Of a stretch of DNA of 62,091 bases, positions 248 through 38,670 are shown piece after piece; the stretch's first letter is position 1; each line of letters starts with the position of its first letter. The stretch comes from Synergistaceae bacterium (lineage in GTDB: Bacteria; Synergistota; Synergistia; Synergistales; Aminobacteriaceae): NCBI GenBank assembly GCA_017405525.1, contig JAFRAH010000033.1, positions 1-62,091 of the forward strand. The letters are read 5' to 3'. Both the position numbers and the translations under genes were made by a program. The notes beneath the pieces were generated by a model. That model was not told the origin of the DNA, ran no database searches, and worked only from the letters and a program-made list of their open reading frames with translations.

Positions 248-539
248 CCTCCGCACCCCTCATGTCTACTACATTGGGGATTTTAGCACGCTTGCACGAA
301 TTACGCAACACTTCAGCCTTCAATCTCACTAACCCTTGCAATAACTGAATACCGAAAAAATACCCTACTGCGACAATCTGACAGAAAACTGCCATTTTCA
401 CACCAAAAAAAGTAACTTGGTCAGACCGTGAAAATTCCCAAATCATAAAGCATCATGATGAACGAATTTATGACCTAGAAACAGCCTGACCATTGTGCGG
501 CGGTTATTGTCTGAATATTTCGTAGTGTTATTTTGCGGC
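248..539 (-). promoter_or_regulatory. CRISPR leader with sigma-70-like promoter
   Basis: This 292-nt AT-rich, gene-free stretch sits between the CARF-RelE stop codon and the first repeat. On the minus strand it carries TTGCGT (308-303), a 17-nt spacer and an extended -10 TGC-TAAAAT (288-280), which would start transcription about 25 nt before the first repeat. That supports leftward transcription. A small 82-codon open frame (198-446, minus) runs through the leader into the repeat and spacer and is not believed to be a gene. The rest of the stretch shows no other recognisable element. Confidence 0.7.
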
Positions 540-1661
540 CTAATGATGTCCGAGCCCTGTATCTATGTCGTCAATGATGAGGTTATTCTTCTCGTCATAG
601 TGGCAGAATCCTCGCCACCCTCCCATGTCCGGCCAAAGGTTGAACTCATGAGTTGACGGCGGTAGAGGTCTGGCCTTGAGCTGGCGGAGGTTGCAGGTGT
701 TCAGGTTCTCCTTCTTCCCCGTGTCAATGTAGCGTGAGAGTTTGTCGACTGCCTGGTTGAAGCGCGTTATCCTCTCAGGCGAGAGGTCTTCAGCCTCATC
801 TCTTGCCTTCCTGCTGATTATGACGTGCTCCGAGAGTGGAGGGAGAACTTCCCTGCTGTATGCCTCATGCTGTGCCTCCTCCCAGATTACATGACCCCAT
901 GCCGAAATGCTACACCTCCCGTCTATGATGTCGACCAGCGTCTCAGGTACACCCGCGCACTCAGAGCAGGGGACGCTCCCTAGCTGCATACGCCTGAACG
1001 CGCCGAGGTTCTCGAAGATGGCCGCCTTTGCGTTCGCCGAGAAGTTCACGGGCATCTTGGGGATGCTGAGGAGTTCCCCGCCAGTCTCGAAAATGTATAC
1101 GGTCTCGTCAGCGTAGAACATTCCCAGCGTCTGCATGTACCCCTGCAAGGACTTGAAGCCCCCCACAAGGTTGAAGATTACCCTGTAGCCCTGCGAGCGG
1201 TAACCCGGAAGTGTCCATGCGCACCATTCTACAAGGTTGTTCACGCCAAGCCGGAACTCTTCAACGCTGCTTGTGTTGAGGTCGCTGATGAGCACCGTCT
1301 GCATGTTGATGCCGTTGGTCCTGCCCCATTCCTGTATTATCTTGGCCGCCTCAACGCCCTGGTATGTGTCCGAGTGAATGAGGTAGTGAGTGTTCTGCCT
1401 CGCCTCGTCGAGATTTGCACCACCCCCGTAGAAACTGATGAAGCCGTTCAGTTCCGCAGAGAGTGCCTGTACTTCCCTGAGTGATGCGGTGGAGAACTTC
1501 CCGCGTTTCTCACGGATTATGCCCGAAATTTTAGCGAGCTCTTCAGGCGTGTATTCGGACTCGTTCTTGTTTGCGTTTTCGCGGAGGAACTTCACGTCCT
1601 CGTGCACCGTCCCGTTCGTGAATATGCTTGTCCCACATGTCGAAACTGTAACCTGCATCAT
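540..1661 (-). CDS. CARF-RelE fusion protein (Cami1-like signalled toxin)
   Basis: Predicted CRISPR ancillary toxin of 373 residues. The N-terminal half resembles CARF domains of the APE2256/TIGR02619 kind: a first strand running into STCGTSIFTN (7-16) and a second ligand loop NLVGGFKSLQG (164-174). The last ~90 residues look like a RelE/ParE-fold mRNA interferase: a helical stretch, then STHEFNL (336-342), GGWRGFCHYD (347-356), a final beta strand LIIDDID (361-367) and a histidine-ended tail. In the described CARF-RelE protein Cami1, cyclic oligoadenylate made by type III Cas10 activates ribosome-dependent mRNA cleavage; the same job is inferred here. The start (ATGATG) lies 7 nt after the cas6 stop, with an AGGGG site inside the end of cas6, so the two are co-transcribed. 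The CARF call is firm; the RelE call rests on motif layout only. Confidence 0.78.
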   Translation of the reverse strand: MMQVTVSTCGTSIFTNGTVHEDVKFLRENANKNESEYTPEELAKISGIIREKRGKFSTASLREVQALSAELNGFISFYGGGANLDEARQNTHYLIHSDTYQGVEAAKIIQEWGRTNGINMQTVLISDLNTSSVEEFRLGVNNLVEWCAWTLPGYRSQGYRVIFNLVGGFKSLQGYMQTLGMFYADETVYIFETGGELLSIPKMPVNFSANAKAAIFENLGAFRRMQLGSVPCSECAGVPETLVDIIDGRCSISAWGHVIWEEAQHEAYSREVLPPLSEHVIISRKARDEAEDLSPERITRFNQAVDKLSRYIDTGKKENLNTCNLRQLKARPLPPSTHEFNLWPDMGGWRGFCHYDEKNNLIIDDIDTGLGHH

Positions 1662-2591: not shown

Positions 2592-4709
2592 TTGGGAAGG
2601 CATATTCTCATGATATGTACATCGGGAACTTCTGCCGTAACGTCCCTGCCAAGTGTAGCATCTCTCCGTGAGACATTCCTTACTTTGACGGACGATCAAA
2701 TCTTGAACGCTGCCCTTAATCCCGAAGGCAGCCGGGACTTCAAGGACAGGTTATCAGCCGTTGAGCTCATGAAAAATCCAGAGGGGTACAAAAATATTCT
2801 GAGTGATCCAAATTTTGGAACGTCGTATAAATTTCCCAGTGCTGAGATACAAACTATATTGCGGTGGATAAGCGACACCATACAGGGCAAAGCACAGGGA
2901 GTTGATGAGCTTAGGATAGTGCTGCTCCCTTCAGAAGATGAGAAATCAATACTGACCTCACACGTAACAGCAGTATGCCTTAACCGTTTAAGTCCATTAT
3001 TCGGCAGCATAAAGCTCAATATCAGCCGTGGCAGTGCGTCAATAATTCCCCTTCCCATAGAAATCAATACACGCGAAGGATTTTTGTCGTCAGTGTCGGA
3101 TTTGTTCTCAGAGTTCGACGAACTGACAGCCAGCAAAAAACCAGATGAGGAAGTAATAATATGCTCAACAGGAGGCTTCAAGGCCGTATCAGGTTTCGCA
3201 ATGATGTATGCACAGCTCCACTCTATTCCGTGCCTCTACTCGTTCGAGGGTTCAAAGGCGGCGGCTTATGAGGTTATGAGCGTCCCGCTTGGGTATGCGT
3301 ATTCGTCGCTTGACGAAGAAATCAATATGCTCAAGGCCGTCTATGAGAATGCCGAAGTCGACAAGTCCTCACTGCCTCAATGGGTGAAGGATTCTGAAAG
3401 CATGGCCGGGACTCTCCTGAAGAGCTACGAACAGGCACGCGAAAAGCCTTACGGGATGGGTGAGGAGATTTTCCGCAGGCTCAGGAAATGCGAGGGCGGC
3501 AATGAATGGGCAGACTACCTTCAGGAGCTCTTGACCTGCAGATGGGGGGAGCTCTGGCTTGGCGACCAGATACCCGAAACGGTCGAGCACAGTCGGAGGC
3601 ACTCAAAGCGTCTGATGGAGCTTGCCGCAAACTTCTTCAGGTGTTCAGGGCACAAAATAGAGAGCATAGGTTTCACGGACGGTAACCCCCTGCCCCTCGC
3701 ACTCCTCATAGCCTCGATATACCTTCATGACATAGGCCACACCGCGTTATCTTACCCGCCCGCAGTGAATGATGATGACGTGAACAATGAGGATCTATTC
3801 CCGCTCGGCTTGTTCCCTTCGGCTGTCCGTGAGCTTCACCACCTCCTGACCGGTGAACTCCTGAAGAGCGACCCGGAACGTTACTTCATGGGCAGGAAGT
3901 ACACGGAGAAAGCCGGGCTCCTCCTGAAGTGCATTCCACTTATTGCCGCGCATCACAGGGGCTATACGGTTCTCAGGCGCGGGGACTCCGTGAGGCTGGA
4001 CAGCAGTAACAGGATCATGAAGGCCGGGAATCTCATTCTTGGGACTGAGAGCTTCAACGCAACCCTGAAACCCCTTGAGGAACGCTCGGAAGGTATCGGC
4101 ATTCCCCCCGATACAATGCTCAACGTAACGGCTCTTCTGCGTGTACTTGACGGCTGTGATGTCCAGTCTGACAGGGTGATTAGCCGCCACTACCTCGAAT
4201 ACAGAAACCAGCGCAGTATTGACGAGGCAAGATTGATACAGGCCGAGATTATGAGCTGTATACGTCAGCTCCCTTCACCACTACAGAAGGAAGTTACACG
4301 GATGGGCGGGAATATTTCAGGCGGTGAGATAAAGGATACCTGCAAGAGGATTTATTCGGAAGTCTTTGACACCCTCAGCGAATTAAAGGAACAATATGGA
4401 ACTTGGCGGAATGTTCAGGGATATGCACTCTCTGAATTTATGGCCTTGTCCCTCGCTAACAGGCTTGCGTTCAAGCGTGAACAGCACCTCCACTTCAAGA
4501 AGCATCAGTGCGCCGCATTTATCCTTCCCGTCATGAATGATGATGACAACTCGATAACAGTAAAGATTTTCCGTAACAATATCGCTGACGGAGACATAAA
4601 CGGAACTCTTGATGACATTGCAAGAGACATAAACGGGGAATATGAAGCCGTTGCTGACGTTTTGGCTGGTTTCCCGAAAATAAATGCTGAAGTTTCAGGA
4701 GGTAAGTGA
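2592..4709 (+). CDS. CARF-HD protein (predicted cyclic-oligoadenylate-controlled phosphohydrolase or nuclease)
   Basis: First gene of the polymerase operon, 705 residues. The N-terminus is a CARF domain: strand ILMICTSGTSAV (5-16) and ligand loop STGGFKAVSG (192-201), with a TTG start chosen because the first strand needs these residues. The middle is an HD phosphohydrolase with a full metal set: H333/H337, H379-D380 followed by G-H383, H416/H417, H454/H455 and D520. The last ~180 residues are unassigned. By analogy with CARF effectors, cyclic oligoadenylate would switch the HD domain on; possible substrates are nucleotides, RNA or the signal itself. It ends directly against the GTG of the next gene, so translation is probably coupled. 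A CARF protein heading a polymerase operon suggests it links type III signalling to the polymerase. The domains are clear; the substrate is unknown. Confidence 0.85.
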   Translation: MGRHILMICTSGTSAVTSLPSVASLRETFLTLTDDQILNAALNPEGSRDFKDRLSAVELMKNPEGYKNILSDPNFGTSYKFPSAEIQTILRWISDTIQGKAQGVDELRIVLLPSEDEKSILTSHVTAVCLNRLSPLFGSIKLNISRGSASIIPLPIEINTREGFLSSVSDLFSEFDELTASKKPDEEVIICSTGGFKAVSGFAMMYAQLHSIPCLYSFEGSKAAAYEVMSVPLGYAYSSLDEEINMLKAVYENAEVDKSSLPQWVKDSESMAGTLLKSYEQAREKPYGMGEEIFRRLRKCEGGNEWADYLQELLTCRWGELWLGDQIPETVEHSRRHSKRLMELAANFFRCSGHKIESIGFTDGNPLPLALLIASIYLHDIGHTALSYPPAVNDDDVNNEDLFPLGLFPSAVRELHHLLTGELLKSDPERYFMGRKYTEKAGLLLKCIPLIAAHHRGYTVLRRGDSVRLDSSNRIMKAGNLILGTESFNATLKPLEERSEGIGIPPDTMLNVTALLRVLDGCDVQSDRVISRHYLEYRNQRSIDEARLIQAEIMSCIRQLPSPLQKEVTRMGGNISGGEIKDTCKRIYSEVFDTLSELKEQYGTWRNVQGYALSEFMALSLANRLAFKREQHLHFKKHQCAAFILPVMNDDDNSITVKIFRNNIADGDINGTLDDIARDINGEYEAVADVLAGFPKINAEVSGGK

Positions 4710-7700
4710 GTGAGCCCGGAAAGAACAGAAATCCTTAACGATGTCAGGAATTGGCTTAAAGGTACAGGAGTAGAGGCAAGCCTATATGCCGCAAAAGGGA
4801 GGAATGACACTTCAAGCCCTGAAATGGTCATGATTGAGCTCAAAGGTCAGCCCGTCAAAGAGCTCGCGGAAAAATACGGGGATGAAGGACGTTTGCTCCT
4901 GCGGTGGCTTCTGCCTTGCCTGAAAGATGGGAGCTGTGAGGTTATGGATTTTCGGAGCGGTGAATGCTACTCGTCAGGCTATATATTCCGAAGACCCGAA
5001 TTTGACAGCGGCAAACATGGAGACATTGCCCCCCTACGTTTATGCCCCGATCTGGACAAGGGCAGTGTGTTTCCTGCATGGTATCGTGATGTCTGGTACA
5101 AGTGGAGGCGTTTTGCGGGGAACATTAAGGGAAAATGCAGCCTGGATAACTTCATCAAACTTGAGGCAGGGCTCAATGCAATATTCACCAGCGGTTCAGC
5201 CCGAAATTCAGGACACTTCATCAAGCACCCCGACGGTGATACGAATCCCCTCCTTGCCCTCGAAACTACAAGGCAGGTCCTCACAGACTGGCCGGCTGAA
5301 ACAATCGGCAGGCTCAGGATACCTCACACTTCCCACAAAAACAGGTTATGCCCGTTCCAGACCCCGGAGTCAAAACGTATAGGGTTACAGCTCAACCTTT
5401 CCGCCGGAGCTGAGACACTGAACGGAACAATCACTGCCGGTGATGAACTGTTCTCGGTTGCGACAGGGCTCATCCCTTACCCCCACCACACAGACGGCCC
5501 CCGCCTCATGATGGGCGGCAAGAACATGAAGCAGGCTGAACCGGGCATTTCTGGGGCTGAAGCTCCCATAGTTCCGGGCTACTACGAGGGAATATACTCG
5601 TCAGACATTGAGTGCCTGAGACCTCACATGAAGGATAAACGTTTCTTCCCATATCTCGGACTTAATGCGCTTACTCTGGTGATGCCGTTCAAGGGCTACA
5701 CTTATGAGGACGGGCTTGTTATCTCAGAATCACTAGCCTCCAAATTCTGCATCAAGGACGGAAATTATACCTGCTCCAAAACTTTTGATGTCGTCGTCAA
5801 AGAATCGGAGCTCCTCGAAAACGGAATAACTATCGATGAATTAGGCAAGGCTTTTCCGTTCGTTGAAGGCGAAAAATATGTGTATGGTGATCTACTGCCA
5901 AGCCCAAGCATAAAATTTTACAGCCCAGATGTCCCCGAAAAAATAAAAGCCTGGAATGAGAGATACGACCATCACGCCGCAGGTATACTCGAAAGCAGTC
6001 CGGCCATCAGAAATCTCACGGTCAAGAAAGAATCAGGACGAAAGAATGGCAAGCAATACAGCGTTGAGTTCTCGGTGTCGTGGAAATTCCGCGTTGAACG
6101 TCCCATGAGCACAGGCGACAAACTGACCGGGAGGAACGGAAACAAGGGAGTAGTAACAAAAATTCTGCCTGATGAGGAAATGCCGAAGGTACATTTTCAC
6201 GACGGAGCAGTTCCCGCTGAACTCATAATATCACCGTGCTCAATTCTAGGACGCAAAAATCTCGGACAGATATGGGAAATGACACACTCACTCCTTATCA
6301 TGAAGGGAGGCAGAAAACTTCAAGCCCTCCTTGAAGAGACCGGCCTTGACATAAAGAATATACGTCTTGACGGCATCAATGACCCGGTGAACGCGGAAAA
6401 AGCAAAGGCCATCACGGACAACCTCAGCGAATTTCTGCAGGAAACAGGTTGTGATGAATACGGCACGTTTGACGTGAGCTTTGACGGGAAACATTCAAGG
6501 GCGTTTGCAGGGTGGCAGTACTTCTGCAGGCTTCACCATCACGCGTGGAAGAAACTTCAGGCACGGGGCGTTAAGGCTCCCTATGACCAGCATACAGGGC
6601 AGCCTCTCAGGTGCGGGGCATTGACCGGCCAGCGAATGGGTGAAATGGAGAACTGGGCATTCCTGAGCCACGGAGCTTTGTCCGTCCTAACTGATATGCG
6701 GCGGCGGCAGACCGGGGATTATGACAAGACACGGGAATTATTCCGCAAAGTCCTGCGCTCACTCGGTATAGTTCTGTCGGAAAATATTTCAGGTCTCGAA
6801 ATTTCCATCAGGGGCAATGATGACGACACACTAGAGAGAAAATCACTGCGTAACGCCTTAAGCTCGGACACCGAAAATTTGCCTTTCTGCGGAATTATGA
6901 CAAGGGAGAAAACTCCACGTGATATTGCGGAAGAGATACTCACCAAACTTTCAGGGAACAATGAAAGCAAGCGTGTCCAGTCTGCCGCAAGGAAACTCAG
7001 CGAAATCATAAACGGTGAATGTTTCTTCAACCCGGACGGAAGCATTCATGTAGAGCCTGAGATACTGAGTTACTCGGCCGAAATGAATTACGATGTCCAG
7101 GAATACGGATCGACAGCCGCGCTAAAACGTCCCTCACTGAAGAAGCTGCTCCAAAGATTCTGTATCGAGCAAAACCCACTAGGACGTGCTGAAGCCCTTA
7201 TTGCCTACAGGGACGGACTGGCAAAAATTCTTTCGGGGAAAACTGGAATACCCCGCTGCTACATGTCAGGACGACGCTACAACCATTCAGGCCGTGCGGT
7301 GATAGTTCCTGAACCTTCACTCAATCTTGACTGTGTATATCTTCCTGCGGCCATGCTGACAGAAATTCTTGACGGCTACGATAATTCTTATACCCGCCTG
7401 ATGCCTCGTGAGCTCAGGAATTTTCCGGGGTTGCGAAAAATCTTCAATGACTACTGGAACAAGAAAACCGAATCACAAGAGCTCGCCAAAATTTTTGATG
7501 ACTTCCTCAATTCCTCTTCAGGTGAATTGTGGTGTTTCCTCATCCGGCAGCCAAGCCTTCACCGCCATAGTGTGCAAGCCTTCAGGGTACGTTGCTGGGA
7601 GTTCCCTGTGATTGGGATTCCTCCGCTCGTTACTCCTGGGTTCAACGCTGACTTTGACGGCGACACAATGGCCGTATTCATTCCGCCATATGAGCACGCG

Positions 7701-9023
7701 AAGGACTTGGGCAGGTTCTCCATCCTGAACAATCCCGGCCTTGTCGGAAATGGGAAGGCAGCATTGGCTGGTTCTCTTGACCTCGCTCTTGGCTGGTGGA
7801 ACATGCAGGAGGGTACTTGCCGAAAAAAACTCTCCTCCCATCTCTCGGAGCTCCTCAGAAATACACCACGTGATGAGCTGAGAGGAACACTCAGGGAACT
7901 TCAGGCTGAAATTTCCACGAACTCAAGCGGGGCGGCTACACTTACTCCCGTTGAGTTTGAGCGTCTTTCACGTGATATGTCGGACAATAATTTTAGCGGC
8001 GGGCTTAATGTCCTCATAAATTCCGGGGCAAAAGGAAGCCTTGACGATGTCGGAAAAATCGTGAAGGAAATCGGCAGTATTGACATGATGGGCGACGATG
8101 ACGAAGCCTCAGAGAAAACACATGAAATATTCATACACGGCAATTTCTGGCGGGGTCTCAGCGATGAGGAACTGTTCATGTACAGCTACCCGTCGCGTTA
8201 CTCGATGGCTCAGAAAAAGCTATCAGTGGCAGATGCAGGCTATCTTTCCCGCTTGCTGGCCGAAAAGCTCTACGAGTTCACCGTCAGCATACATGACTGC
8301 GGGACAACTGAAGGTCTCGAAGTCTCATACTCCCCTGAACATGACAGGCTCATAGTCTGTGGCTCGGTAATGCCAACTCTTGGGAGCTTGTACGAGGATG
8401 CAGAACGTATCCTTTGGGGCAGGGTCTTGGCCGGGGAAAGGAAGTGCCTGAACTCCGACGACGTGAGGGAAATCGTGGATGACCTGAAAGACGGCAGGAC
8501 AATACGAGTCCGCTCACCCCTCCATTGCCGCGAAAGGGAGAAAGGCCACGTCTGCGCAATGTGCTACGGTGCTGATGTGGCCTCAAGACCATATGACAGG
8601 CCCCAACCAGTCCACGAAGATTTTGCGGCCGGACTCACTGCGGCGGAAGCTATCGGTGAACGTGGGACTCAGCTCGCAATGAAACGCTTTCACGATGTAG
8701 GGAGCAGTTCCGCAAGCCCAATCCAGAAGGTGAAGAAGATACTTGCAGGAAACGGGACAGCCTCGCTCAATGACGTAATAGCAGAAATTCTTGACGACGG
8801 CAAGGACAACCATACAGCCAACAAGGAACTTCCTCAGTCCCTTGTACATTTTGAGGCAGCGGCAGCCTTTGAGCCATTGAGGGGCGGAGGGGAATATATT
8901 TCTGACATTGCGGGCGAGAAAATCTCACGTCTCCTGATACGGAAACCGGGCAGGGAGTTTCACTTTACGGACGACTTGATGACGATAAAGAGCCGTCTTT
9001 TGTGGGAAGGAGGGATAATCTGA
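4710..9023 (+). CDS. Single-chain beta/beta-prime-type RNA polymerase, CRISPR-associated
   Basis: A 1437-residue protein holding both catalytic halves of multisubunit RNA polymerase. Beta motifs in order: NRLCPFQTPES (211-221), GYTYEDGLVISES (329-341), GDKLTGRNGNKG (469-480, with K471 and K479 at the E. coli K1065/K1073 places), GQRMGEMENW (641-650). Beta-prime motifs: HSGRAVIV (859-866), RQPSLHRHSVQAF (946-958), the metal site NADFDGD (979-985), the bridge-helix start SGAKGS (1105-1110), zinc cysteines C1197, C1273, C1282, C1285, and trigger-loop GTQLAMKRFH (to H1328). All expected catalytic residues are present, so it should be active. It is far smaller than a housekeeping beta plus beta-prime (about 2700 residues): about 350 beta N-terminal residues, most of the clamp with the sigma-binding coiled coil, and most of the beta-prime C-terminus are missing. 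GTG start with AGGAGG 7 nt away. DNA or RNA template is undecided. Confidence 0.93.
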   Translation: MSPERTEILNDVRNWLKGTGVEASLYAAKGRNDTSSPEMVMIELKGQPVKELAEKYGDEGRLLLRWLLPCLKDGSCEVMDFRSGECYSSGYIFRRPEFDSGKHGDIAPLRLCPDLDKGSVFPAWYRDVWYKWRRFAGNIKGKCSLDNFIKLEAGLNAIFTSGSARNSGHFIKHPDGDTNPLLALETTRQVLTDWPAETIGRLRIPHTSHKNRLCPFQTPESKRIGLQLNLSAGAETLNGTITAGDELFSVATGLIPYPHHTDGPRLMMGGKNMKQAEPGISGAEAPIVPGYYEGIYSSDIECLRPHMKDKRFFPYLGLNALTLVMPFKGYTYEDGLVISESLASKFCIKDGNYTCSKTFDVVVKESELLENGITIDELGKAFPFVEGEKYVYGDLLPSPSIKFYSPDVPEKIKAWNERYDHHAAGILESSPAIRNLTVKKESGRKNGKQYSVEFSVSWKFRVERPMSTGDKLTGRNGNKGVVTKILPDEEMPKVHFHDGAVPAELIISPCSILGRKNLGQIWEMTHSLLIMKGGRKLQALLEETGLDIKNIRLDGINDPVNAEKAKAITDNLSEFLQETGCDEYGTFDVSFDGKHSRAFAGWQYFCRLHHHAWKKLQARGVKAPYDQHTGQPLRCGALTGQRMGEMENWAFLSHGALSVLTDMRRRQTGDYDKTRELFRKVLRSLGIVLSENISGLEISIRGNDDDTLERKSLRNALSSDTENLPFCGIMTREKTPRDIAEEILTKLSGNNESKRVQSAARKLSEIINGECFFNPDGSIHVEPEILSYSAEMNYDVQEYGSTAALKRPSLKKLLQRFCIEQNPLGRAEALIAYRDGLAKILSGKTGIPRCYMSGRRYNHSGRAVIVPEPSLNLDCVYLPAAMLTEILDGYDNSYTRLMPRELRNFPGLRKIFNDYWNKKTESQELAKIFDDFLNSSSGELWCFLIRQPSLHRHSVQAFRVRCWEFPVIGIPPLVTPGFNADFDGDTMAVFIPPYEHAKDLGRFSILNNPGLVGNGKAALAGSLDLALGWWNMQEGTCRKKLSSHLSELLRNTPRDELRGTLRELQAEISTNSSGAATLTPVEFERLSRDMSDNNFSGGLNVLINSGAKGSLDDVGKIVKEIGSIDMMGDDDEASEKTHEIFIHGNFWRGLSDEELFMYSYPSRYSMAQKKLSVADAGYLSRLLAEKLYEFTVSIHDCGTTEGLEVSYSPEHDRLIVCGSVMPTLGSLYEDAERILWGRVLAGERKCLNSDDVREIVDDLKDGRTIRVRSPLHCREREKGHVCAMCYGADVASRPYDRPQPVHEDFAAGLTAAEAIGERGTQLAMKRFHDVGSSSASPIQKVKKILAGNGTASLNDVIAEILDDGKDNHTANKELPQSLVHFEAAAAFEPLRGGGEYISDIAGEKISRLLIRKPGREFHFTDDLMTIKSRLLWEGGII

Positions 9024-9024
9024 C

Positions 9025-9870
9025 ATGGAATTGCGCCACGTGAATAAAAACAGAGCCGACAACAGAACAGCAAACGTAGAGAGTTATATTCAGCGGAATA
9101 TTTATGTTTACGTTGATGATGATACAGACCAGCCAACGCTTGACTTGTCCGACGAAGATTATGATGATGCCCCATTGGAGGCCAATGAAGAATCAGACGA
9201 TGACACCGACGAAAGCAGTGATTACCCTGACACTGAAGGAGCAGGAAATATCCGGCCTATATGGCTTTTGTACGAGGGCCAAATATTGTGGGCGGCTTCC
9301 CGTTATGGTTTCAGGATTGCACCAAAGGAATACTTCAGGCGGAGGGTTCAGAAACTCCTTCACTTTCTGGCCTCAAAGTTCCCAGGAAAAAGCTACGGTG
9401 ATTTGCTCCTGAGCCTTAAGGGTTTTTTTGCGAAGGACAACGACAGCTCTAAAGGCAACTGGCTCGAATCCCTGAAGAATACCGGCATCCTCTACCTTGA
9501 TGAGACAAAGAAAGACTATGAGATTATGCCGCTCGGAGATCTCAGGGCTGGAAAAGGTCAGGGGAAAAATAACGAGCTGCCCGAAATGATAGAGCGTCTC
9601 TGGTTCGAGCGTGAAGTGTCAAAATCAGGGCTTGCCCCCGGAACTTCACCTGACTGGGATAAATTCGGGGCGTTGCTTCTCGACAGCTTCAAGAATTTCT
9701 GCGAGGAGCTCAACGATTTATGTGGCAGCTTTGACTCCCATGAGGAGGAAGACAGCGGAAAAGGAATTACCAGCGGTATAGGTCTCAAGAAAACAGAATT
9801 TACCTACGAGGAATCTACACTGCAACGAAAAAAACTCGACAGGTGGAAAAAGTGGTGGCGCAAAAAATGA
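9025..9870 (+). CDS. Acidic protein of unknown function in the RNA polymerase operon
   Basis: Not recognised. 281 residues, one base after the polymerase stop, with a strong AGGAGGG site. Residues 30-80 are strongly acidic and look disordered (runs such as DDDTDQP, DEDYDDAP and ESDDDTDESSDYPD). A helical domain follows (about 82-150, WLLYEGQILWAASRYGF then RRRVQKLLHFLASKF), a charged linker, a second helical part (about 185-240), and a very basic, tryptophan-rich tail ending RWKKWWRKK. An acidic arm plus a basic end would suit a polymerase accessory factor, DNA mimic or initiation factor replacing sigma, but no sigma region is visible. The stop overlaps the next ATG by four bases, so it is made together with the AAA+ protein. 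Confidence 0.8.
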   Translation: MELRHVNKNRADNRTANVESYIQRNIYVYVDDDTDQPTLDLSDEDYDDAPLEANEESDDDTDESSDYPDTEGAGNIRPIWLLYEGQILWAASRYGFRIAPKEYFRRRVQKLLHFLASKFPGKSYGDLLLSLKGFFAKDNDSSKGNWLESLKNTGILYLDETKKDYEIMPLGDLRAGKGQGKNNELPEMIERLWFEREVSKSGLAPGTSPDWDKFGALLLDSFKNFCEELNDLCGSFDSHEEEDSGKGITSGIGLKKTEFTYEESTLQRKKLDRWKKWWRKK

Positions 9871-11270
9871 GTCATGATGTTCACGTTTGCTTTGCCTACA
9901 AGAACAGGAATCAGGCCGAAGAGTTCAGATGCTGTGAAGAACTGGTGAAGTCTGTTGTGTCTTCCCTCTTGGAGCAGGGAAAGAGTGGGACAAAAACAGA
10001 ATTTTCACATTTGAGCGGGAAGATAAAGACATGCAGTGATCTTGACGGTGCTGATTTTATCGTGGGCGACCCCTCTCACCCTAACTTTCAGGCCAAGCAC
10101 AGCACAGAGGGAAGAACTATACTGCGTCCTGTCCCGGCCATTGTCATACTTCCTGATGACAGTTGGGGCGACAAAGTAAATTCAGTGCTGAAGAACCCCA
10201 TGTATGACATTCGGGGAGTGTTCAGGGCCTCAAGACTGTATGCTAGTGTCCGTGATGCCGATGAGCTGGGGAATTTCTGGGAGGTAATGAAAACATTGCT
10301 CCGCCAGATTCTCCGAAGGAACGGCCTCAAGGAGGAAGACTTCTCAAAGCCTATAGACTGGAAGGCAAAAATCTCTGACAGTTGCGGGACGGAATTTATG
10401 AGCCTCTTTTCGACACCGGCAATGCAGAAAATGTCAGCACAATATAAAGATGCCATATTGAAGCTGGATGATCCTTTTCTTCGGAATTTGAGGGGGAGCT
10501 TGGGAAGTTCCGAGAACCTCCGCGAACGTTGCAGGGAGATAATGAATTTCTTTGACACAAATTTACCCGGACATAAAAATTCATATCATGTCCCCTCACT
10601 TTTGCTGCTGGGTGAGACGGGCTGCGGGAAGTCCCTTCTTTCGAACGCTGCGGCAAACGTAATCATGCCGGATATTAAGCTCGCCCATGTGAATATCTCA
10701 TCCTATGACACGAACTCTATAGACATAATGCTTTTCGGAGCAGAGAGTGGATCATATACCAGTTCAGACCGCGACAGGCTGGGACTGTTCATAGGACATT
10801 GCGGCGAAGTAGTGTTCCTTGATGAGATCGGTGATATGAATTTGGAGAGCCAGACACGTTTGCTGACGTATATGGACAATTCGCAGGTCCTGCCCAGAGG
10901 AATGGGGGATTCTGTGTGTTCGCCGTGTATCCTTATTGCCGCAACGAACAAGAACGTGAAGGATGACAAGAATTTCCGCAGGGACATTCTCAGCCGCTTT
11001 GACCACGTCATCGAGATACCATCGCTAAGTGAGAGGAAGAAGGACATACGACTTTTAGCCAGCATGATTTTGCAGGACAGCAAGATAAATCCAGAGGCAG
11101 GCACTAAAAGGAAAGTGGAGAGAATAAGCCTTGACGCAATAAATTATCTTGAGGGTCGTGATTATCCCGGCAACTTCCGAGAACTTAAGTTCTGCATAAG
11201 CCAGGCAGTGAACAATTCGTTTTCGGAAGGCAGTGAATGTTTATGCCTGAGACATTTCTTGAGGCATTAG
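9867..11270 (+). CDS. Enhancer-binding-protein-like AAA+ ATPase without DNA-binding domain
   Basis: 467 residues from the ATG at 9867, which overlaps the upstream stop as ATGA; a GTG 24 nt earlier is possible but less likely. Residues 1-~200 form an unrecognised domain. The rest matches the AAA+ core of sigma-54 activators: Walker A GETGCGKS (249-256), GSYTSS (295-300) at the place of the GAFTGA loop that touches sigma-54, Walker B VVFLDE (D319-E320), sensor IAATNKN, an FRRDILSRFD arginine-finger region and YPGNFREL (433-440). The Fis-type helix-turn-helix that normally follows is absent, since the protein ends 27 residues later. Known relatives remodel closed promoter complexes with ATP. Here it probably remodels the single-chain polymerase or its partner, with the N-terminal domain as sensor; that role is inferred. 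Confidence 0.85.
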   Translation: MSHDVHVCFAYKNRNQAEEFRCCEELVKSVVSSLLEQGKSGTKTEFSHLSGKIKTCSDLDGADFIVGDPSHPNFQAKHSTEGRTILRPVPAIVILPDDSWGDKVNSVLKNPMYDIRGVFRASRLYASVRDADELGNFWEVMKTLLRQILRRNGLKEEDFSKPIDWKAKISDSCGTEFMSLFSTPAMQKMSAQYKDAILKLDDPFLRNLRGSLGSSENLRERCREIMNFFDTNLPGHKNSYHVPSLLLLGETGCGKSLLSNAAANVIMPDIKLAHVNISSYDTNSIDIMLFGAESGSYTSSDRDRLGLFIGHCGEVVFLDEIGDMNLESQTRLLTYMDNSQVLPRGMGDSVCSPCILIAATNKNVKDDKNFRRDILSRFDHVIEIPSLSERKKDIRLLASMILQDSKINPEAGTKRKVERISLDAINYLEGRDYPGNFRELKFCISQAVNNSFSEGSECLCLRHFLRH

Positions 11271-24408: not shown

Positions 24409-26143
24409 ATGGACATCAAGATACAGGCTGAAGAACTCAACAGGCTTGCAGGGAGTGAGGAGTCGGGTTACACGATAGGCTATGAGGCTGGCGACACGAT
24501 AATAATCACCGGCAGTGAAGAGCTTGAAGACGGCATGGACATTCTCGATGCTTCAGTGAGGAGGGCAGGGAAACCGTATCACCTCGTCTTTGAGAACGGG
24601 CAGAAATATACCGAGTCATTATGTTGCTTATAGTGGCAGCTGCCTATCACACAACAACAGTATATTGTCATTCACCGCCCCGGAACTTCTGAGCATAGGG
24701 GGATATTTCTTCTCGTTCTTCCCGGAACTTAAGCACGTAAACGCCCCTAAAGTGAGGAGCATTGAGCTCGGCGCATTCACCGGGTGCCTTAGCCTTGAGG
24801 AAGCTGTGTTCCCTGAAGCCGTCAGCCTGAGTGAAGAAGCGTTCTACGGCTGCTCAAATCTTAGAAGGGTCGTAATGCCCAAGGTCAAGAACGTAATATC
24901 ACCTGAGAAAATCTTTTACGACTGCGTGAACCTTGAGAGCGTTGAATTTCCTTCATTGTCGAGTGTAGGAATGGGAATGTTCAAGAACTGCGTGAACCTC
25001 CGGGAAATTAGCCTTCCTTCAGCGACAGAAATTGACGATAACGCATTCACTCACTGCATCAGCCTCAAGAGGGCAGTTCTCCCTTCAGCAAAGACAATCG
25101 GCACTAAGGCATTCAGCAGGTGCACGAGCCTTGAGGAAGTCATAGCCCCCGAAGCTGAGACGATAGATGACGAGGCATTCAGTACCTGCATCTACATAAA
25201 GGCCATAAACCTTCCCAGAGCCCTCACGATAGAGGATGCCTCATTCATGGGCTGCCTGTCGCTGGCTGAAGCAGTGATGCCCCTTGCTGAGTCAGTCGGC
25301 TATGATGCATTCAAGGGCTGCGCAAGCCTCGAAACCGTAGAGATGCCCTCACTCCTTCACATAGGCTCAGGGTCATTCAGGGAGTGCAGGATCACAACCC
25401 TCAACGTTCACCCCGAAGCTGTGGCGGAATATGACTCGTTCGATGTCTCAGCACCCAAGAACTGCCCGGAGATTGGCGGCCTTCATGAGCGCGCAATGAT
25501 GAGGGAGCTTGAGGACCTCGAAGTAAGGGCAGAAGCCGGGAACATGGAAGCACAGTACGAGCTGGGCTGTGTCTACGAGACCGGGAGGCTTGAACGTTTT
25601 GCATCGCGTTATCCATGTGCGCCGCTGGTCTGGACTGCCGAATGTTTCACCCCGGACATAAACGAGGCTATTGAGCTCTGGAAGAAGTCATCAGCTCAGG
25701 AATACCCCCCGGCAATGTTCCGTCTCGCGAAGGAATACGCAGAGGGCACGAACATTCACCAGGACTCACGGGAGGCTGTGAGGCTCTGGGAGAAGGCGGC
25801 AGGTTCAGGGAACGATGATGCTATGCTGTATTTGGGCATGGCCTTTGAGGGTGGCAGGCTCACGGAAAAGAACATCAACGAAGCCCGGAGATATTACCGC
25901 ATGGCCGTGAGGAAGTTCAACGCAGAGGCATTGAGGCACCTCATAAGGCTGAACGGGTCCTGCCCTGAGACTGGAAGCGCAATGCCCGAAGATGAGACTG
26001 AAGCAACATACTTCAAGGCAGAGCACGGGGACGTTAAGGCAATATACCGTCTCGCAAAAACGTGTGAAGAAATCTACGAGGATGAAGACAAGAGGCTTGC
26101 ACTTGTGAGGCTTGCATCTGACCTCAAGAAAGGAAGGCACTAA
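24409..26143 (+). pseudogene. BspA-type leucine-rich-repeat and Sel1-repeat protein, paralog 1, frameshifted
   Basis: Starts with the ATG at 24409 (AAGGGAG upstream), giving the same N-terminus as the two paralogs downstream (MDIKIQAEELN, then GDTIIITGSEEL and KPYHLVFENGQ). The frame shifts by one between about 24604 and 24633, after which the second frame continues to 26143. BspA-like repeats of ~23 residues (pattern FxxCxxLxxVxxPxxxxIxxxA) fill about 80-300 and three Sel1-like helical repeats (for example AMFRLAKEYAEG and AMLYLGMAFEGG) fill about 330-500. No signal peptide. A short MRTG start at 24590 could express the repeat part alone. Probably a protein-binding scaffold; true frameshift or sequencing error cannot be separated here. 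Confidence 0.8.
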
Positions 26144-26147
26144 CTCC

Positions 26148-27779
26148 ATGGACATCATGATACCTGCTGAAGAGCTCAACGAATGCGGCAAAAACTCAAC
26201 CATAACCTACAACGCTGGCGACAGGCTCATCATCACGGGCAGTGAACAGCTCAAGGACTGGGACGCTATAGCCTCAATCGGCTACAGGCTCTGGAAGCCC
26301 TATCACCTCGTCTTCATGAACGGGCAGGAATTATCCCCCACAACCCGCAGAAGCGACCCCGGCAAAATGTTGTCCCTCAAAGCCCCCGACATGGTCGAGA
26401 TAGTCGGGCACGCATTCGATTACTGCTATGACCTCGCCAGCATTGACGCGCCCAAAGTCCGCAAGATAGGTGAGGGAGCGTTCAAGGACTGTATATCACT
26501 CACTGAAGTAGTGTTCCCTGAAGTCGAGGAACTTGGGGAGGAAGCATTTGCCGGGTGCTAAAACCTCCGCAGTGTAGTGATGCCCAAGCTGAGGGAATGC
26601 GAGTGGTACCTTCCTAGCTGTGAGACATTCTTAGGCTGTAGTAACCTAGAAAGCGTCGAGATGCCCTCATTGCTGGATGTCGGGGACGAAATGTTCTTCT
26701 ACTGCCCAAACCTGAAGAGAGCCGTCCTGTCTTCCGCAAAGTCAATAGATAGCCGTGCATTTGCTGATGCCGTGTCCCTTGAGGAGGTCATCGCGCCGGA
26801 AGTTGAGGAGATTGGAGCTGATGCCTTCCGTAATTGCCACGCTCTGAAGAGGGCATATTTCCCCAAGGCAAGGGTCATATGGTCGTCAGCATTCTCACCA
26901 TGTTCCTCACTGTCGGAAGTGGTCATGCCTGAAGCCGAAAAGGTCTGTCGTTCCGCGTTCGCATACTGCCACAACCTCAAGACTGTAGAGATGCCCAAGC
27001 TCCGGGAAATCGATGGAATGTCATTCTTCGGCTGTGAGAACATAACGACCTTCAAGGTTCACCCCGACGCAATAGCACAATGCAACTCTTTCGGCTCAGG
27101 GAAGTATTTCCCCAAAGGCTGCCCGGAAATCGCCGAGCTGAGGAGGCTGGCTTTCTGCAGGGAATATGACAGGATCAAGGCCTTAGCTGACGAAGGAGAC
27201 CCTTATGCACTCTACGACATAGGCATGGTATACGGGACAGGGAAATTCCACATACTCATGGACAATCTGATTGCTGACCTCATAGTTTGCGACGTTGACA
27301 TCAACAAGGCTGTAGAGCTCTGGAAGAAATCCGCTGAACTTGGACATGTCCCGTCAATGAATATCCTTGCTGAGACCTACGCAGAAAGTAAAGGTTACCT
27401 CTATGATCTTGACGAGGCATTGAGATATTGGCGGATGGCCTCAGAGAATGGCAGCACCGAAGCAATGAAGCGTCTCGGCGAAATATTCAGTGATGGCAGA
27501 CTCACAGCAACAGACCTCACTGAATCCCGGAAGTACTACCACATGGCCGTGAAGTCAGGGGACTATGAGGCGTTGCTTGCCCTCGTCAGGCTCAACAGGG
27601 ACAACCCCGAACCTGAGAGCTCCATTCCCGACGATGAGACAGAGGCACTCTACTTCAGGGCAGAACATGGGGACGTTGAGGCTGTGCGTGAGATTGCCCG
27701 CATGTACGAGGAGGACAGCGAGGAGTCACGGAGCTTCTACTATGCCGCCAAAGAACTGGAGAAAGACATGGAGGAATAG
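26148..27779 (+). pseudogene. BspA-type leucine-rich-repeat and Sel1-repeat protein, paralog 2, in-frame stop
   Basis: Same layout as paralog 1: common N-terminus (MDIMIPAEELN, GDRLIITGSEQL, KPYHLVFMNGQ), BspA-like repeats, then Sel1-like repeats (AVELWKKSAELGHVPSMN, AMKRLGEIFSDGRL). The frame is open from 26148 to 27779 except for a TAA at 26559-26561. The sequence on both sides is one repeat unit (FAGC, stop, NLRSVVMP), so a single base change of a sense codon such as AAA explains it. A GTG at 26577 could restart the second part. It follows paralog 1 by four bases. Confidence 0.8.
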
Positions 27780-27785
27780 CACTGC

Positions 27786-28400
27786 ATGGACATAGAGATA
27801 CCGGCATCATACTTCAACAGCAGGCGCAACACGATAGACTACGGGCCCGGCGATACCATCATCATCACCGGCGATGAGCTCGAACACAACTGCACCGGCA
27901 TAGGCTGGGAGGCATTCTGCGACGCTGTCAGGAAGAACGGCAACCCCTATCACCTCGTCCTGAGTAACGGCCAGAAAGGAACGTCAACAATGGGAGTAAC
28001 CTTCGGGCAGGCAATAATGGGCGGCATCATCTCAATCACTGCCCCCGAACTCGAATATGTAGGCACCCTCCTCTTCTCTGGGTGCAACGAGCTCACAGGG
28101 TTAGACCTTCCGCGAGTTACGTTCATCCAGGGCGGGGCTTTCGCGATGTGCCAGAAACTTGAACATGTATCACTTCCTGAAGCCGACTTCATTTATCTCG
28201 ATGCCTTCAGGAAATGCCACAACCTTAAGACCGTTGACCTTCCCAAAGCTAGGGAGCTCTCGGACAATGCTTTTGCGGGCTGTGAGAACCTTGAGGTGCT
28301 TAACATTCCCATGATCGAGACTGTAAGCTGTTCGGCACTGAGTGGCTGCAAAAAACTTCAATGGAGGGATGCATTATGTGTGATGAAGGGAAAACGCTAG
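27786..28400 (+). CDS. BspA-type leucine-rich-repeat protein, paralog 3, short form
   Basis: 204 residues, six bases after paralog 2. It has the shared N-terminal domain (MDIEIPASYFN, GDTIIITGDEL, NPYHLVLSNGQ) and five BspA-type repeats, but ends without Sel1 repeats. The last ~20 residues (KKLQWRDALCVMKGKR) overlap the start of the following peptidase gene and no longer follow the repeat pattern, so the gene looks cut short by the peptidase gene. Confidence 0.8.
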   Translation: MDIEIPASYFNSRRNTIDYGPGDTIIITGDELEHNCTGIGWEAFCDAVRKNGNPYHLVLSNGQKGTSTMGVTFGQAIMGGIISITAPELEYVGTLLFSGCNELTGLDLPRVTFIQGGAFAMCQKLEHVSLPEADFIYLDAFRKCHNLKTVDLPKARELSDNAFAGCENLEVLNIPMIETVSCSALSGCKKLQWRDALCVMKGKR

Positions 28401-38130: not shown

Positions 38131-38670
38131 TTAGTGTTTTGCGTTCAGCTTGGAGTCGATTAGTGCCTCTATCTGTTCGAGGGTAATTGTAGGCTCAGGC
38201 TTGAAGATTTTCCTGACGAACCGCGCAATAGGCTCAATGAACACTACAACGGTTACCAGCATTGCGATGAAGGCTATACCCGTCCCTACGTAGCCTTCTA
38301 TCCTGTCAATCCGGCGGTCAATGGTATCAACTTTCCTTTCGAGGTTGTCAACCCGCCCGGTCAGCACATCGACTCTCGCCTCCAGCTTGTCAAACCTGCC
38401 GTCTACCCTTGCGAACCTGTCGTTTACTTCCGCGAACCTGCCGTTTACTTCCTCCCTGAACTCTGCGAACCTGCCGTTCACTTCCTCCCTGAACTCCGCA
38501 ATCTTGCCGTTCACTTCCTCCCTGAACTCCGCAATCTTGCCGTTAATCTCAACCCTGGACTGCCGAAGCTCCTTCAGCACTTCCTCATTGCCCAGCCTGA
38601 TTTCAGCCCTCAAAGCCCGCTGGTCTGCCTCGTAAACGTCCTTGCGAAGGTACACATCTTCACTTGCCAT
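38131..38670 (-). CDS. Coiled-coil membrane-anchored protein with 11-residue repeats
   Basis: 179 residues. A long charged coiled coil (about 15-130) holds 11-residue repeats of the type EVNGKIAEFRE, followed by RVDxLxxRVDxLER-like heptads, one transmembrane helix (IAFIAMLVTVVVFI, about 131-150) and a short basic tail. It looks like the DUF1640/bdr-like group of C-terminally anchored coiled-coil proteins; function unknown. Three 33-bp units in the gene are nearly identical. ATG with GGAG 11 nt upstream. Confidence 0.8.
   Translation of the reverse strand: MASEDVYLRKDVYEADQRALRAEIRLGNEEVLKELRQSRVEINGKIAEFREEVNGKIAEFREEVNGRFAEFREEVNGRFAEVNDRFARVDGRFDKLEARVDVLTGRVDNLERKVDTIDRRIDRIEGYVGTGIAFIAMLVTVVVFIEPIARFVRKIFKPEPTITLEQIEALIDSKLNAKH
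38437..38546 (-). repeat. 33-bp coding minisatellite
   Basis: Units beginning at 38448, 38481 and 38514 share CTTCCTCCCTGAACTC and differ at only a few positions. The 33-bp period keeps the coiled-coil reading frame, so copy-number change would alter coil length by 11 residues. Confidence 0.88.

Follow-up and report, generated by a model that had tools for sequence, protein, structure and literature searches.

Single-chain or reduced two-barrel RNA polymerases are known from Bacillus phage SPbeta (PMC5467207), P23-45 (PMC10770324), phiKZ (PMC4666361) and killer plasmids (PMC6211774), and in 2023 Altae-Tran et al. (PMC10910872) included an association designated RNAPol + CARF (UAS-58) in a list, with no mechanism in the main text. 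Here we analyse a stretch of 62,091 nucleotides from a Synergistaceae bacterium (contig JAFRAH010000033.1; the whole stretch is referred to as the window), in which a gene at 4710-9023 (+) encodes a single-chain beta/beta-prime RNA polymerase of 1437 residues, located in a locus of clustered regularly interspaced short palindromic repeats (CRISPR) and immediately behind a CARF gene. In our judgement, chances are slightly better than even that the operon containing this gene is a dedicated transcription system for an island of type III CRISPR-Cas and other defence genes.

The polymerase compared with described enzymes

The UAS-58 entry shares with the window an RNA polymerase gene beside a CARF gene near a type III CRISPR system, and its figure legend names HD, CYTH and FleQ, matching partners found in the operons analysed here; it differs in being described as two-component, and its main text, with which the comparison was made by description only, gives neither anatomy, distribution nor promoter element. 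Because Altae-Tran et al. had listed RNAPol + CARF, the association is not presented here as new, and the statement of an earlier sequence-only reading of this DNA that a CRISPR accessory of this sort was still undescribed is wrong; what is added is the anatomy of the enzyme, its distribution, an argument concerning sigma-54 and a promoter-like element.

YonO of phage SPbeta is likewise a single chain of the multisubunit two-barrel superfamily, but it is the product of a phage gene, has 839 residues and lacks CARF or AAA+ partners; its hhalign probability against the window polymerase is 0.1, although YonO is so extremely divergent that this absence says little. The P23-45, phiKZ and killer-plasmid enzymes are also reduced, non-canonical two-barrel polymerases dedicated to the genes of one element; they serve a parasite, however, whereas the window polymerase is found in a bacterial immune locus. 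The fused housekeeping polymerases of Helicobacter and Wolbachia (NF007172/NF011417) provide its best NCBIfam matches and present the same order of beta and beta-prime in one chain, although the window enzyme is half as long. A housekeeping fusion was discarded, since the polymerase reaches 217 bits where NF007172 requires 5372, and the genome holds separate housekeeping rpoB and rpoC genes, side by side on contig C14.

The polymerase frame opens with a GTG codon at the base right after the CARF_HD stop, and is preceded by a Shine-Dalgarno sequence (AGGAGGT, 4698-4704) overlapping the last CARF_HD codons. Pfam places beta before beta-prime, with Rpb2 domain 6 at residues 315-633 (E 4e-25), Rpb1 domain 2 at 854-998 (E 2e-18) and Rpb1 domain 5 at 1149-1401 (E 2e-12), Rpb2 domains 7 and 3 being matched as well. 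With a profile of four family members, bacterial beta-prime chains of known structure are recovered at E about 1e-56, and among NCBIfam models bacterial rpoC and rpoB score higher (184 and 148 bits) than archaeal A' and B (60 and about 73 bits). The frame and every motif listed by the sequence-only reading were found as described, and its statement that the catalytic positions are kept holds across ten homologs, in which the aspartate triad of NADFDGD, the beta lysines, the FHD of the trigger helix including its histidine, and zinc cysteines 1197, 1273, 1282 and 1285 are all invariant. The beta catalytic motif GDKLTGRNGNKG (residues 469-480; 6114-6149, +) contains the GDKxxGRxGNKG lysines, which are invariant in the alignment, and the ED motif is also present; the beta-prime Mg-binding motif NADFDGD comprises residues 979-985 (7644-7664, +), and the trigger-helix motif GTQLAMKRFHD, recognised by alignment of homologs, residues 1319-1329 (8664-8696, +). 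Comparison of the window with the related locus L007 indicates purifying selection on the polymerase (nonsynonymous divergence dN 0.195, synonymous divergence dS 1.57, dN/dS about 0.12). An AlphaFold model of residues 201-1400, built on an alignment of only four sequences, reached a mean predicted local distance difference test score (pLDDT) of 39; the predicted presence of two double-psi beta barrels rests on homology, which covers both barrel regions, and the retained motifs suggest that the protein would synthesise RNA.

In comparison with the Escherichia coli and Synergistota enzymes, the catalytic core is kept and the periphery is reduced. About 210-280 residues stand ahead of the TPE motif in the polymerase family, as against 495-570 in beta, and the TPE and ED motifs are separated by about 120 residues instead of 246-254. 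The beta-prime clamp stretch that holds the sigma-docking coiled coil has 44-62 residues in three family members and 87 in E. coli, while 108-191 residues follow the trigger helix in the family, compared with 449-619 in beta-prime. With clamp and periphery thus shortened, canonical sigma docking has likely been lost. Regarding its origin, a recent duplicate of host rpoBC was rejected because the family sits on a long branch (1.8) in a FastTree beta-prime tree, apart from the housekeeping enzymes of Synergistota and others and from a Rhizobium phage enzyme. Neither was a phage or plasmid origin or spread detected, as tblastn returned generic RNA polymerases only (at most about 32% identity, coverage at most 65%) and a scan of viral contigs with two short patterns gave no homolog. 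A scan of 392 genomes, other phyla being represented by about 200 of them, found the polymerase in Synergistota only, two outside matches corresponding to housekeeping rpoBC.

Linkage to Cmr-type systems and a promoter-like element

Carriers of the polymerase amount to 17 of 188 Synergistota genomes. A related Cmr-type Cas10 is present in 14 of them and in 12 of the 171 non-carriers (Fisher p = 1e-11, species not being independent), the carriers in which it was not detected being the window genome and the highly fragmented drafts G056 and G038. In relatives, cmr1, cas10, cmr3, cmr4 and cmr6 adjoin the operon, in several together with genes for a reverse transcriptase, cas1 and cas2, and in close relatives the corresponding position holds a complete cmr operon; in Fretibacterium fastidiosum, cas10 and the polymerase are about 29 kb apart and separated by an array of at least 46 repeats. 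Considering that Cas10 occurs without the polymerase in 12 genomes and together with it in 14 of 17 carriers, the polymerase module is an accessory that a Cmr system may or may not have. This neighbourhood survey, in which the conserved operon appeared next to cmr in relatives, agrees with the earlier expectation of homologs beside CARF and cas genes. Likewise, from the proposal of an active, dedicated polymerase of a defence module, the dedicated and type III-linked part is sustained by motifs, operon and Cas10 co-occurrence, while activity stays at the level of a prediction.

In both carriers of one genus (G108 and G111), a promoter-like element, ATGTCTCTAAAAAAATAAATATA, stands ahead of cas, cmr and accessory operons. 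With at most three mismatches allowed, G108 contains three copies in 2.6 Mb, all within the polymerase island: two perfect ones, preceding the PIN/kinase/zinc-ribbon gene and the vWA-PP2C-p138-cmr1-cas10 run, respectively, and a third with 3 mismatches inside the polymerase gene. At the same threshold G111 has eight copies on three contigs, which carry the polymerase island, the cmr operon and JAB-E1/E2/RNase H defence genes, one copy preceding the operon that leads to cas1, cas2, the reverse transcriptase and a second cas10-like gene; weaker copies precede further genes in both genomes. Chance would yield about 0.001 such matches per genome under a first-order Markov model, the reversed element gave none in G108 and G111, and the element is absent from 12 genomes of the same family without the polymerase, five of them from the same genus. 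One of these genomes, G113, has neither polymerase nor element, yet its cmr4 and cmr6 are 91% and 83% identical to those of G108. The Cmr locus of G113 (L109:4120-13247) shows a cas10 frame shortened to 397 residues, and is possibly decaying.

Often the element is found directly behind a terminator: at six sites a strong hairpin (-21 to -41 kcal/mol), in most cases with a T-rich tail, lies no more than 15 nucleotides ahead. Of 11 intergenic sites, 7 are followed 33-77 nucleotides downstream by a Shine-Dalgarno sequence and start codon. A consensus built from 11 sites holds 36 bits over 31 nucleotides, and the aligned sites display neither sigma-70 -35/-10 spacing nor a sigma-54 pattern. Upstream of the CARF_HD-polymerase operon of G108 and G111 there is no same-strand copy, which fits a cascade set off by the host.

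Two further observations concern these islands. Both genomes have an element copy inside the polymerase gene (L047 minus 8545-8523; L053 minus 9527-9505), upstream of the genes for the acidic protein and the AAA+ ATPase described below, which may serve as an internal promoter or may be a coincidence of the coding sequence. In addition, a TerY-like triad (PIN/protein kinase/zinc-ribbon, vWA, PP2C) precedes cmr1 under the element (L047:1380-5360, -; L069:832-4820, +).

Operon partners and CRISPR setting

CARF_HD, polymerase, acidic protein and AAA+ follow one another in this order in each island whose sequence extends far enough, and all four genes are under purifying selection. CARF_HD (2592-4709, +) combines a CARF sensor domain with an HD phosphohydrolase domain (HD-CE); PADLOC PDLC01933 (CARF7 family, E 7e-210) covers it in full length (residues 3-703), and its HD residues are conserved in the alignment. 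In the window, no sigma-70-like promoter above chance was found ahead of this gene. Two genomes show a small CYTH-like protein between CARF_HD and polymerase (L047:12956-13414, -; L053:13934-14431, -), labelled from its EIERKY start and lacking a Pfam match, and a fused CARF_CYTH_HD form also exists in PADLOC.

The acidic-tailed protein (9025-9870, +) is a conserved partner, known from alignment and a structure model (pLDDT 67) in which residues 1-74 are disordered and 75-281 ordered. The model found no convincing PDB match; its helix/strand order resembles that of a winged helix, although identity is not claimed.

The last gene (9843-11270, +) encodes an AAA+ ATPase of the RtcR/NtrC/FleQ type, with NifA, ZraR, NtrC and FleQ as closest relatives. 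Like bacterial enhancer-binding proteins of the RtcR/FleQ type, it presents an AAA+ core with a loop at the GAFTGA position (GSYTG or GAYTG in most members, GSYTS in the window), and NF038308 (RtcR) matches residues 252-456, so that the sigma-54 AAA+ core is present. Unlike them, it has no profile match to the N-terminal CARF domain of RtcR or to a C-terminal helix-turn-helix, the protein ending after the lid, and its genome is devoid of detectable sigma-54. In fact, with positive controls, none of the nine Synergistaceae carriers gave a sigma-54 match (PF04552), not even F. fastidiosum, the genome of which is a single contig, while sigma-54 is present in the eight other carriers. Because of this absence, the AAA+ protein in Synergistaceae cannot work through sigma-54.

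On the other side of CARF_HD, the contig begins inside a CRISPR array (18-250) with four perfect 31-nucleotide repeats (21-51, 84-114, 150-180 and 217-247), and no Cas10/Cmr2 of a type III-B (Cmr) system was found in the window genome. A conserved non-coding element at 363-581 (-), detected by nhmmer, points into the array and is probably its leader; it also occurs upstream of cmr1 in L007. This repeated element of the window's genus ('el') had been considered as a promoter regulon, a candidate dropped when it proved to be a probable CRISPR leader. It is followed by genes for a CARF-RelE protein of the CARF7 family (540-1661, -; PADLOC PDLC01934, E 1e-115), predicted to be a cyclic-oligoadenylate-activated RNase, and for the Cas6 endoribonuclease of CRISPR RNA (1669-2421, -; PF01881, E 6e-32; TIGR01877). 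Array, cas6 and two CARF genes together confirm the CRISPR location that had been read from the letters.

Some other features were observed in the islands and in the window. A fusion of JAB and ThiF (E1-like) recurs in Synergistota Cmr islands (L068:8845-10515, -; L079:8603-10690; L046:15635-17593; L076:3881-6238; L110:12209-14164), with E2-like and RNase H genes nearby in G111, and may represent a ubiquitin-like defence module linked to type III CRISPR. In G066, from the window's genus, ATTTTCACCGAAAAGCATAATTA and variants are repeated upstream of several genes for small secreted proteins in the neighbourhood of the CRISPR locus (L073:2405-7047). Outside its CRISPR region, the window has tandem 33-nucleotide direct repeats at 38429-38560, and at 24571-27990 it displays three copies of a 49-nucleotide repeat about 1.7 kb apart, suggesting a row of paralogous genes.

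Possible roles of the module

As a dedicated transcription system, the module would work as follows. Host transcription of the CARF_HD-polymerase operon would start a cascade in which the one-piece, DNA-dependent polymerase transcribes the defence operons from its own short promoters, for which the element of G108 and G111 is the candidate. The AAA+ and acidic proteins are probable initiation or remodelling factors, the former presumably acting on the polymerase or on its acidic partner in the way sigma-54 activators act on sigma-54, and CARF_HD probably ties the polymerase to cyclic oligoadenylate made by Cas10, the putative triggering signal. Defence transcription might in this manner be switched on or sustained independently of the sigma factors and core polymerase of the host, which are common targets of phage inhibition, and the same mechanism may apply in the window's own genus. 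A complete private apparatus, consisting of a polymerase with its promoter code, a sigma-54-free AAA+ activator and a CARF switch signalled by Cas10, and providing immunity independent of host RNA polymerase, is a bolder claim that we hold only tentatively, at somewhat below even chances.

Several points weigh against a dedicated transcription system. The element was seen in two genomes of one genus, and neither the window nor any other carrier yielded an equivalent; operon and cmr genes are collinear in the G021-G024 group, where a separate promoter would not be needed; another island factor could read the element, the link of which to the polymerase is indirect; and Altae-Tran et al. (PMC10910872) group RNAPol + CARF with putative effectors. 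This grouping favours the polymerase being a downstream effector that CARF_HD switches on in response to cyclic oligoadenylate from Cas10, to make RNA unspecifically or from phage DNA, with consumption of nucleoside triphosphates, antisense or double-stranded RNA, or a block of phage transcription as outcomes. The gapless succession of the CARF and polymerase genes and the CARF7 membership and conserved HD residues of CARF_HD fit such a role; we nonetheless find it rather unlikely, considering that (i) the promoter-like element tracks the polymerase, (ii) the operon includes an ATPase of promoter-remodelling type, and (iii) transcription motifs are nearly all retained, suggesting templated, promoter-directed transcription.

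It is less probable still that the element is the site of another island regulator or sigma factor and that the polymerase does something else. The polymerase-element link rests on co-occurrence and the element is absent from other genera, both compatible with such a regulator, but the site is compact, matches neither sigma pattern, and is missing in same-family genomes that keep cmr without the polymerase. Copying of RNA in the manner of eukaryotic QDE-1, amplifying target RNA or making double-stranded RNA for the Cmr complex or the adjacent reverse transcriptase, agrees with the single-chain two-barrel design and with the reverse transcriptase, Cas1 and RNase H genes of many polymerase islands, but appears quite improbable for an enzyme whose sequence is closest to bacterial DNA-dependent polymerases, including zinc site and trigger helix, and which matched no RNA-copying homolog.

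Host RNA polymerase is routinely seized or shut down by phages. Should the module indeed be dedicated to defence transcription, immunity that relies on a polymerase and promoters of its own could not be silenced via the host polymerase, and no earlier example of a cellular immune locus with a private polymerase of multisubunit type would, to our knowledge, exist. A sigma-54-type ATPase would moreover have a partner different from sigma-54, and a compact orthogonal transcription system would become available. Thanks to the promoter-like element, private transcription in these bacteria is a hypothesis open to direct testing.

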